A DNA stretch of 7,070 nucleotides from Propionibacteriaceae bacterium (lineage in GTDB: Bacteria; Actinomycetota; Actinomycetes; Propionibacteriales; Propionibacteriaceae), in assembly GCA_020438595.1 (NCBI GenBank), contig JAGQUI010000137.1, positions 1 through 7,070 of the forward strand, in the 5' to 3' direction. The position numbers and the translations under genes were made by a program. How positions within the stretch are numbered: the stretch's first letter is position 1; each line of letters begins with the position of its first letter. The notes below the pieces were generated by a model that was given only the letters and a program-made list of their open reading frames with translations, searched no databases and had not been told where the DNA came from. This document shows, one piece after another, positions 5,079-6,720 of this stretch.

Positions 5079-5111
5079 GCCACCCGAATGCCACCCGAAT
5101 GCCACCCGAAT
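5079..5111. repeat. Three perfect 11-bp direct repeats (GCCACCCGAAT)
   Basis: The unit GCCACCCGAAT occurs three times head to tail at 5079-5089, 5090-5100 and 5101-5111 without a mismatch. The array ends 11 bp upstream of the TACAAT element and covers its -35 region. A period of 11 bp is about one helical turn, so bound protein subunits would sit on one DNA face. The CACCCG core and 11-bp period recall the direct-repeat units of PhoP-type PHO boxes in actinomycetes, but the match to that consensus is only partial. A simple replication-slippage repeat is the alternative. Confidence 0.85.
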
Positions 5112-5139
5112 GCGACGATGGCCGCCAGGGCCGGTCCCA

Positions 5140-5155
5140 CCCGGATCAGTCCGGG
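5140..5155 (-). terminator. Hairpin over the marR stop codon, possible terminator
   Basis: CCCGGA and TCCGGG form a perfect 6-bp stem with a 4-nt loop (TCAG) that contains part of the marR stop codon. No T-tract follows on the minus strand, so it could only be one of the U-less hairpins proposed for actinobacteria. It may be weak, allowing read-through into the small gene. Confidence 0.3.
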
Positions 5156-5598
5156 AGGTCCGCGATCCGTCGGGAGAGCCGGCCGAGCGCGGCCAGTTCC
5201 CCGGGCTCGAGATGGTCCAGGAGCCGCCTGCGCACGGAGTCGACGTGCATCGGCGCCGCCTCGACGAGAGCCTGCAGCCCCGCCTCGGTGAGGTGGTAGA
5301 TCGATCCCCTCGCGTCGTCCGGATCCGGCGCACGGGTGATCAGGCCACGCGCCTCCATCCGGGCCGCGTGGTGGGAGAGCCGACTCCGCGACCACTGCAT
5401 CTTCTCCGCGAAGTCACGCAGCCCCCAGGCCCGGTCCTCGCGCTCGGACAAGGTGCTCAGCACCTCGTAGTCGGGGGCCGAGAGGCCGGTCGGCACGAGA
5501 TCCCGGGAGAGTCGCGCCGGAAGCACCGTCAGGAGCCGCCGGAACTGCATCCAGTCCCGCAGTTCGTCCTCACTGAGCCAGTCGACATCGCCCACCAT
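5146..5598 (-). CDS. MarR family transcriptional regulator
   Basis: MarR proteins are dimers with a winged helix that usually repress a divergent gene and themselves until a small ligand binds. The 150-residue protein from ATG 5598 has the family layout: N-terminal dimerisation helices (WLSEDELRDWMQFRRLL, residues 7-23), helix-turn-helix at about 60-82 (GLRDFAEKMQWSRSRLSHHA), wing at about 88-103 (RAPDPDDARGSIYHLT), and C-terminal helices. It contains no cysteine, so thiol oxidation cannot be its trigger. ATG 5598 is preferred because a -10 element ends 6 nt upstream. GTG 5595 is also possible, with GGAG 5 nt before it. It is divergent from the flavin reductase-acetyltransferase gene across a 51-bp gap with two identical palindromes, so that gene and marR itself are the likely targets. 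Ligand unknown. Confidence 0.92.
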   Translation of the reverse strand: MVGDVDWLSEDELRDWMQFRRLLTVLPARLSRDLVPTGLSAPDYEVLSTLSEREDRAWGLRDFAEKMQWSRSRLSHHAARMEARGLITRAPDPDDARGSIYHLTEAGLQALVEAAPMHVDSVRRRLLDHLEPGELAALGRLSRRIADLPD

Positions 5599-5604
5599 GA
5601 CTCC

Positions 5605-5634
5605 AGCATACCGTTGACATGTCAAAGATATCGA
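5605..5634 (-). promoter_or_regulatory. marR promoter (-35 TCGATA, -10 TATGCT)
   Basis: On the minus strand TATGCT (5610-5605) ends 6 nt before ATG 5598. TCGATA (5634-5629), a 4/6 match to TTGACA, precedes it by 18 bp. The spacer contains the whole first palindrome, so bound MarR would directly block RNA polymerase. The geometry predicts a leaderless mRNA. Confidence 0.45.
5614..5625. promoter_or_regulatory. MarR operator copy 1 (TTGACATGTCAA)
   Basis: A perfect 12-bp palindrome of the length and symmetry expected for a MarR dimer. It fills the -35/-10 spacer of the marR promoter, and its left half is a perfect TTGACA -35 for the divergent gene. One site could thus repress both directions. 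Operator function is inferred from symmetry, duplication and position. Confidence 0.75.
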
Positions 5635-5642
5635 CCTGATGT
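5614..5642 (+). promoter_or_regulatory. Promoter of the flavin reductase-acetyltransferase gene
   Basis: TTGACA (5614-5619), a 17-bp spacer and TGATGT (5637-5642) form a candidate promoter. The -35 is perfect and the -10 poor. The -10 ends 7 nt before ATG 5650 and no ribosome binding site is present, so leaderless initiation is expected. Both promoter flanks are covered by operator copies. Confidence 0.45.
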
Positions 5643-5659
5643 CTTTGACATGTCAAAGA
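5642..5659. promoter_or_regulatory. MarR operator copy 2, 18-bp palindrome over the start codon
   Basis: TCTTTGACATGTCAAAGA is a perfect 18-bp palindrome containing the same 12-bp core as copy 1. Its centre is 31 bp from the centre of copy 1, close to three helical turns. The ATG of the fusion gene (5650-5652) lies at the centre, so bound protein would cover the predicted transcription start. The longer symmetry suggests the higher-affinity site. Confidence 0.75.
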
Positions 5660-6720
5660 ATGCTCCCGTCCGAATCCTGGCGATCGTCGCGAGCGTCCGA
5701 CCGGTTCGCCGCGCGGACGCCGTCCTGGCCTGGTGGCTCACGGCGACCCGGGCGGTCGTGAACTCGTGCGGTGCCGTCGTCGAGGTCGCCGACCTGCGAG
5801 CGTTGAGACTGCCGCTGGACGATGAACCCGAAGAGCCGCACACCGGCCACTACGCCTCGCCGCACACCCGCCGATGGAGCCGGATGGTCACCGACGCGGA
5901 CGCGATCCTCGTCATCACGAGCGAAAACAACCACTCGCTGCCGGCCTCGCTCAAGAACGCGTTCGACCACCTCTCCGCGGAATGGAGGGACAAGCCGGTC
6001 GCCTGGGTCGGCTACGGCAACACCTCTACGGGTACCCGCGCCGTGCTCGCAGGAAAGCAGGTGGCCACCACGTTGGGGCTGGTGTCGACGGGCCCGGACG
6101 TCTGCCTGCGGCTGGCGGACTGGACCGGCGACCTGCTTCCGGACGACGCGGGGCGGGACCGGGCGGCGCGGGATGCCGTGGCCCGACTGGTCGGGCTGGC
6201 CCGGATCCTCCGTCCCCTGCGGGCGGTGTCCCTCCCGATCCCCCACCTCCCGGAGGACCTGTCCGCAGCCACCGCCACCGCGGCCGACGCCGCCGAACTG
6301 CTCGTCCTGCAGCGGTGCTGCTGGGTCGACGAAGCGATCGCCAACAACACGCTCGCCGTGCCCGCCTTCCGCGAGGGGCTCGAGGACGTCCAGCGAATGA
6401 TCACCGAGCGCGAGGTCGTCGTCGTGCGACGTGGCGGCAGGATGGTCGCGTCGGTCCAGGCGTGGCGGGACGCGAAGAACTGGAGGGTGGCGCGGCTCAT
6501 GGTCGCACCGGACCAGCGGCGGCGCGGACTGGCCAGGTTGCTGCTCCAGCACGTCGAGGCCCGCTACCCGGACGGACCGGAGCGGGTGGTCCTCTCCACG
6601 GGCGAGCACAGCCTCGGCAACATCACCCTGTACGAATCGGCGGGTTTCGCCGTCGTGGGGTCCTCGATCCCGGGCTCGGTCGACCTCGCCAAGCCGATCC
6701 GTCGCGAACCCGCCGCCTGA
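5650..6720 (+). CDS. Fusion of NADPH-dependent FMN reductase domain and GNAT acetyltransferase
   Basis: The 356-residue protein combines two enzyme domains. Residues 1 to about 185 match the flavodoxin-fold NADPH-dependent FMN reductase family: RILAIVASVRP (8-18) is the phosphate-binding loop region, ITSENNHSLPASLKNAFDHL (89-108) the flavin/dimer segment, and WVGYGNTSTGTRA (119-131) the second flavin loop. Variants from the usual pattern are ENN for EYN and NTSTG for a GxSGG-like loop. Residues from about 214 are a GNAT domain, with the acetyl-CoA motif LMVAPDQRRRGLA (283-295) and motif B NITLYESAGF (324-333), where Tyr328 is the likely general acid. A linker at about 186-213 joins them. ATG 5650 lies eight codons before the first strand. 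The open frame further upstream is noncoding overlap with marR. Probably MarR-repressed through the flanking palindromes. Substrates are unknown; reduction followed by acetylation of one xenobiotic is a hypothesis. Confidence 0.88.
   Translation: MSKNAPVRILAIVASVRPVRRADAVLAWWLTATRAVVNSCGAVVEVADLRALRLPLDDEPEEPHTGHYASPHTRRWSRMVTDADAILVITSENNHSLPASLKNAFDHLSAEWRDKPVAWVGYGNTSTGTRAVLAGKQVATTLGLVSTGPDVCLRLADWTGDLLPDDAGRDRAARDAVARLVGLARILRPLRAVSLPIPHLPEDLSAATATAADAAELLVLQRCCWVDEAIANNTLAVPAFREGLEDVQRMITEREVVVVRRGGRMVASVQAWRDAKNWRVARLMVAPDQRRRGLARLLLQHVEARYPDGPERVVLSTGEHSLGNITLYESAGFAVVGSSIPGSVDLAKPIRREPAA

Follow-up and report, generated by a model that had tools for sequence, protein, structure and literature searches.

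Gene organisation and twin palindromes

The window, as the whole 7,070-nt stretch analysed here is called, resembles chromosomal DNA of an actinobacterium, to judge by its nearest relatives. It carries a gene encoding a MarR-family repressor and, diverging from it across a gap of 51 bp, a fusion gene that joins an NADPH-dependent FMN reductase to a GNAT acetyltransferase (Table 1). Between the marR start codon (ATG 5598, minus strand) and the edge of the fusion gene lie two exact copies of the palindrome TTGACATGTCAA, at 5614-5625 (copy 1) and 5645-5656 (copy 2), and a 15-bp direct repeat, TTGACATGTCAAAGA, spans both with a start-to-start spacing of 31. Copy 2 widens to a perfect 18-bp palindrome, TCTTTGACATGTCAAAGA, whose centre falls within the fusion-gene ATG at 5650-5652. 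Both the twin copies, 31 bp apart, and the extended palindrome on the start codon had been claimed in a first-pass annotation of the sequence, and both were found exactly in place.

Table 1. Genes, protein domains and candidate regulatory elements of the window.
Feature	Position	Strand	Remarks
marR, 150-aa MarR-family repressor	5146..5598	-	Pfam MarR_2 3e-10; ATG 5598, GTG 5595 possible
Probable marR -10, TATGCT	5605..5610	-	6 nt before ATG 5598
Operator 1 (putative), TTGACATGTCAA	5614..5625	.	First six bases form the fusion-gene -35
Weak fusion-gene -10, TGATGT	5637..5642	+	Spaced 17 bp from the -35 and 7 nt from the ATG
Operator 2 (putative) with flanks, TCTTTGACATGTCAAAGA	5642..5659	.	Core at 5645-5656; the fusion-gene start codon lies within it
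Fusion gene, 356 aa, NADPH-dependent FMN reductase + GNAT acetyltransferase	5650..6720	+	Pfam
FMN_red domain	5671..6093	+	Pfam FMN_red 5.3e-26, residues 8-148
GNAT domain	6382..6648	+	Pfam Acetyltransf_1 8.7e-10, residues 245-333

None of the 200 dinucleotide-shuffled versions of the window contained an exact copy of TTGACATGTCAA, and a simulation of 200,000 stretches of 62 bp with the local composition gave any 12-bp palindrome in 2% of cases and a repeated palindrome in none. When three mismatches were tolerated, two matches to TTGACATGTCAA appeared in 25 of the 200 window shuffles, so that the case against chance lies in the exactness of the copies together with their conservation; on these two grounds a chance origin was ruled out, though the mismatch-tolerant count is by itself insufficient. 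Seven further perfect 12-bp palindromes are present in the window, none of them repeated, and a comparison with Rfam gave no family at or above its gathering score. Directly downstream of the marR gene, at 5080-5112, stand three exact tandem copies of CCACCCGAATG.

Conservation of the gene pair and the site pair

A survey restricted to one genome per species returned 65 loci with relatives of the fusion protein, and in 59 of these a homologue of the window MarR directly adjoins the fusion relative in divergent orientation. With the window and ten additional loci, found in later searches, included and one duplicate (L089) removed, the set comprises 69 non-redundant loci; the six loci without an adjacent marR match (L036, L057, L060, L062, L063 and L065) were left out. 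Absence of the palindromes beside orthologous gene pairs, one of the observations that by the first-pass annotation would have told against its reading, was not encountered, as the site pair is kept in 69/69 loci. Scored against two 9-base half-sites, the pairs reach 14-18 of 18, with at least 16 in 63/69, whereas a score of 14 is attained by only 11 of 2070 shuffled regions treated in the same way, and 16 by none. In 59/69 loci the central CATG is intact in both sites; each of the others has a single-base change in one site or in both. The distance between site centres is 30 bp in eight loci, 31 in eight, 32 in 31 and 33 bp in 22.

The start codon of the fusion gene falls within site 2 throughout the set (66 ATG, 3 GTG). 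A full fusion frame opening from site 2 is missing in two loci: L052, where a stop follows after 74 codons, and L058, from Actinocatenispora comari, where the gene behind the twin sites (5965-6480) encodes only the GNAT part and lacks the flavin reductase.

As a control, related MarRs were collected from eight genomes (16 loci), five of which had no helix match by pattern and went unscored, including L149, a 51% relative. Among the 11 scored loci, a TTGACATGTCA-type pair was present in three (two orthologues and a Dactylosporangium MarR), near-matches in two and neither in six.

The Dactylosporangium vinaceum genome (12 Mb) contains TTGACATGTCAT three times and holds the two halves of the fusion as separate genes. 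One TTGACATGTCAT lies in the presumed -35 of a GNAT-only gene, 47% identical to the GNAT part of the fusion. Another TTGACATGTCAT belongs to a different region of the genome, in which a MarR 42% identical to that of the window diverges from an FMN_red-only gene (40% identical); the gap between them has two sites 30 bp apart, one of which contains the likely FMN_red start codon. Since both halves carry a site, a shared regulon is supported. The third TTGACATGTCAT is located between a PadR-like and a hydrolase-like gene, both named by eye. In an Aeromicrobium metagenome genome (L074, around position 1501), another two sites of similar sequence, with about 32 bp between them, form a second pair ahead of an MFS transporter gene, which is a possible further target; no MarR was found on the 3-kb stretch that holds this pair.

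The repressor and two classes of site

By sequence match to the PDB, the solved structures closest to the window MarR are AbsC (3zmd, 1e-22) and SCO3205 (3zpl, 1.5e-18). SCO3205 of Streptomyces coelicolor has two operators, O3204 and O3205, between its own gene and one that diverges from it; it protects 24 bp at these sites and binds them with affinities of 1.3 and 2.4 nM (PMC3737563). In the crystal, side chains touch bases A5, T7, G8, C15 and A16, with residue 77 reading base 8; A:T pairs at positions 6, 7, 9, 14, 16 and 17 matter, T6:A17 and A9:T14 without direct contact, and the C15A change alone is near-neutral (PMC3737563). Position 10 of the published consensus, TTnAAnnnTCAA, is A (PMC3737563). 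From the contacts described in that paper, we reduced the site to a TTGA-N4-TCAA core. Aligned to the SCO3205 site, TTGACATGTCAA of the window supplies T6 T7 G8 A9 and T14 C15 A16 A17, and both window sites match seven of the eight fixed bases of TTnAAnnnTCAA, with C for A at position 10; the symmetrised crystal site, according to its figure legend, also lacks A at this position (PMC3737563).

The window MarR has Arg72, Ser73 and His77, as well as the wing Arg98. Residues were scored in 68 MarRs, that of L001 being missed by the pattern and read separately. Ser73, Arg74, Ser76, Arg81, Arg90, Asp96, Arg98 and the pocket pair Trp16/His119 are kept in 68/68, and Arg72 in 67. The phosphate contacts Arg60/Thr62 of SCO3205 are Gly and Arg in the window MarR, at positions that do not read bases.

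Two classes of loci were assigned by inspection. Class A comprises 16 loci including the window, with MarRs at least 67% identical to the window MarR; TTGA-N4-TCAA is exact in 12/16 at site 1 and in 12/16 at site 2, and the remaining sites have one mismatch. Class B comprises 53 loci, among them two from Lysobacteraceae (L034, L037), with MarRs about 47-58% identical to that of the window; the outer arms TCGTTGACATG ... CATGTCAACGA are retained, and the inner arms are degenerate, deviating at positions that mattered in SCO3205. In the MarR tree a single branch with 100/100 support parts class A from class B, the window clustering with relatives from Microbacterium and Aeromicrobium. All 15 scored class A proteins have His at residue 77 and all 53 of class B have Arg, while position 100 in the wing (SCO3205 numbering) is Ser in 15/15 and Cys in 53/53. 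Site class and MarR class thus split together, which is one event on the tree and not repeated coevolution. The two clades are a natural experiment on how a single residue in the recognition helix sets MarR specificity. The window MarR has no cysteine; in class B, Cys100 is the sole cysteine of 48/53 proteins, and redox sensing is a possible role for it.

Promoter elements and start codons

TTGAC[A/G] lies inside site 1 in 69/69 loci, in support of the proposal that copy 1 supplies the -35 of the fusion gene. Upstream of the fusion start, TAnnnT is found at 7 nt (41 loci) or 8 nt (24 loci), giving 65/69 against 8% in shuffles; the exceptions are L002, L034, L037 and the window itself, which has TGATGT. 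A consensus promoter scan of window positions 5500-5760 found no promoter. None of the 69 loci has a Shine-Dalgarno-like 4-mer before the fusion start. The fusion gene therefore appears, from these elements, to be leaderless, in which case copy 2 would cover both the transcription start and the start codon.

In the 65 loci with TAnnnT the -35/-10 spacer of the fusion gene stays at 16-18, while the centre spacing ranges over 30-33. The 31-bp distance in the window had been read as three helical turns placing two dimers on one face of the DNA. The spacing is real, but it follows the -35/-10 spacer, and promoter geometry explains it equally well; cooperative binding as its cause is unneeded and was set aside.

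On the marR side the two classes differ. All 53 class B loci have a marR reading frame that begins at a start codon inside site 1, with TAnnnT exactly 6 nt upstream in 51/53 (10% in shuffles), TTGACA within site 2 on the marR strand in 43/53, and a Shine-Dalgarno-like 4-mer in 1/54. The marR promoter spacer measures 18-20 bp in the 51 loci with the TAnnnT, which is long for such a promoter. Read from the sequence, each class B site contains the start codon of one gene and, in the majority of loci, a -35-like hexamer for the gene on the other side. As a putative operator sits on both start codons in 53/53, both proteins would begin with an operator-imposed peptide, usually Met-Ser-Thr-Lys-like.

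In class A, except for L054, where the marR frame is open from site 1 too, the frame is closed at site 1 and the likely starts lie 22-28 nt further out. TAnnnT stands 5-7 nt before a possible marR start in 15/15 scored loci, the start being chosen among candidates and the count carrying no shuffle control. A Shine-Dalgarno-like 4-mer, mostly AGGA inside TAGGAT, is present in 9/15, which allows for a leadered marR. The window has GGAG at 5601-5604, between TATGCT and the marR ATG, and a leadered transcript with a start at GTG 5595 is possible. Leaderless marR transcription is accordingly a clear prediction in class B and an ambiguous one in class A. Copy 1 had also been placed in the spacer between the marR -35 and -10; the probable -10 TATGCT agrees with this, but no -35 hexamer is recognisable for marR in the window.

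The missing -35 and the outward shift of the likely class A marR starts, 22-28 nt from copy 1, would both fit a MarR that mainly controls one gene, with copy 2 repressing the fusion and copy 1 kept largely as a -35 with little effect on marR. We consider this unlikely, given that class A copy 1 retains a non-promoter arm, TGTCAAAGA, and that in class B the start codon of marR falls within copy 1 in 53/53 loci. Alternatively, the repeats could be only a conserved divergent leaderless promoter, with TTGACA on both strands and ATGTCAA starts, and involve no repressor at all. The TTGACA and start-codon roles do account for part of each site; nevertheless, bases beyond the hexamers and start codons are conserved, such as, in class A, C at -6 and AGA after the core, and the sites are similar to an operator already demonstrated for this protein subfamily (PMC3737563), which leaves a promoter without a repressor extremely improbable.

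Specificity of the motif

The motif was followed in 38 genomes of one family, 11 of which have the fusion, with marR adjoining it in 11/11. The 15-mer TTTGACRTGTCAAAG is present in eight of the 38, all eight among the 11 genomes with the fusion and none among the 27 without (0/27); five of the eight supplied the pattern, and leaving these out gives 3/6 with the fusion versus 0/27 without. The other three fusion genomes have variant site pairs (L111, L112, L119).

The bare 12-mer TTGACRYGTCAA occurs in 33/38 genomes of the family, and 19 of 26 loci carrying it (one per genome, not every match) precede a luciferase-like monooxygenase gene, whether or not the fusion is present. These copies, most of them with G and C as flanks, were seen at L073, L075, L079, L081, L082 and L086 and at 19/26 of L121-L146, the loci coming from many genomes of the family and from a Microbacterium; two of the monooxygenase genes were checked with Pfam and the rest named by sequence pattern. 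Membership of the monooxygenase gene in the same regulon was dropped, as the 12-mer is there regardless of the fusion, and the palindrome on that side is apparently under another regulator. A whole-genome search with the 12-mer, suggested earlier as a way to list further targets, is consequently non-specific and mostly finds monooxygenase promoters; the flanked 15-mer is the better signature.

The presence of the 12-mer upstream of an unrelated monooxygenase gene means that another repressor could share the sites. The palindromes beside marR might then bind a different regulator, either another MarR or that of the monooxygenase gene, the neighbouring marR being incidental, and the wide distribution of TTGACRYGTCAA (33/38 genomes, 19/26 loci before a monooxygenase gene, fusion-less genomes included) speaks for it. 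Against it, the flanked 15-mer tracks the marR/fusion pair, and the A and B site types split with the MarR tree along the 100/100 branch and with residue 77, the base-8 contact in SCO3205. On this evidence a different regulator is very unlikely.

A proposed divergent switch

Starting from the observed sites, their conservation, the gene pairing, the kept contact residues and the promoter-like geometry, we infer binding by the neighbouring MarR, repression of both genes, leaderless transcription and a class of ligand. The palindromes are very probably operators of this adjacent SCO3205/AbsC-like MarR, which would hold both genes low until released by a ligand. One MarR dimer would bind each TTGA-CATG-TCAA site. 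At copy 1 it would cover the -35 of the reductase-acetyltransferase gene and sit just upstream of the probable marR -10; at copy 2 it would cover the fusion gene, which is probably leaderless, at its transcription start and start codon, and both genes would thereby be kept low. Release would follow when a small ligand, which may be an aromatic acid or related compound, enters the Trp16/His119 pocket. Points that speak against this reading are the C at position 10 where TTnAAnnnTCAA has A, the changed Arg60 and Thr62 contacts, the poor fusion-gene -10 and the negative promoter scan, the unrecognisable marR -35, the GGAG before the marR start, the 12-mer upstream of a monooxygenase gene, the third TTGACATGTCAT of D. 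vinaceum and the deviating inner arms of class B. The comparison of loci supports the compact switch envisaged in the first-pass annotation, with putative operators placed so as to silence both genes.

A more specific version is put forward tentatively, its chances being just short of even. Here the switch is mirror-symmetric, and each operator would have three roles: it binds the repressor, it encodes the beginning of one leaderless gene from the start codon onward, and it provides the gene opposite with its -35. Repressor and site specificities split jointly in this version (77 His/Arg), and class B Cys100 could be a thiol switch.

The layout is compact and widely shared, recurring in many actinobacteria, and in it one short sequence can be operator, promoter element and start codon. 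It also ties a flavin reductase to an acetyltransferase. As the halves are separate in one genome, each with a similar site, the identity of the ligand could point to the pathway.

Comparison with known systems

Within open-licence texts, searches returned no match to the operator strings, no FMN reductase/GNAT/MarR fusion in actinomycetes and no case of operators on start codons or overlapping leaderless promoters; one near case was CrtR of Corynebacterium glutamicum. Like the window MarR, CrtR is a MarR repressor divergent from its target, for which autoregulation is discussed and whose own gene is reported as leaderless (PMC5401885). It differs in its short TTAA motif, in a target with a 114-nt leader and in an operator that does not lie on the start codon, as far as the sections of that paper used here describe it (PMC5401885).

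AbsC (SCO5405), the best PDB sequence match, shares with the window MarR the Trp/His pair that binds salicylate. It is implicated in zinc-dependent antibiotic production and has other targets, and twin sites at start codons are not described for it in the parts of the SCO3205 report drawn on here (PMC3737563).

SCO3205 is closer in arrangement: it belongs to the same MarR subfamily, has two pseudopalindromic operators toward a divergent gene, and has in common with the window the TTGA-N4-TCAA core and the base-contacting Arg72, Ser73 and His77 (PMC3737563). However, it is only 35% identical to the window MarR, its divergent gene is extradiol-dioxygenase-like, its own sites are imperfect, and a start codon inside its operators is not described in the same parts of that report (PMC3737563). 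The kind of system is therefore known, being of the SCO3205 type, and what would be new is that the putative operators coincide with start codons of genes that look leaderless, in class B at either end.
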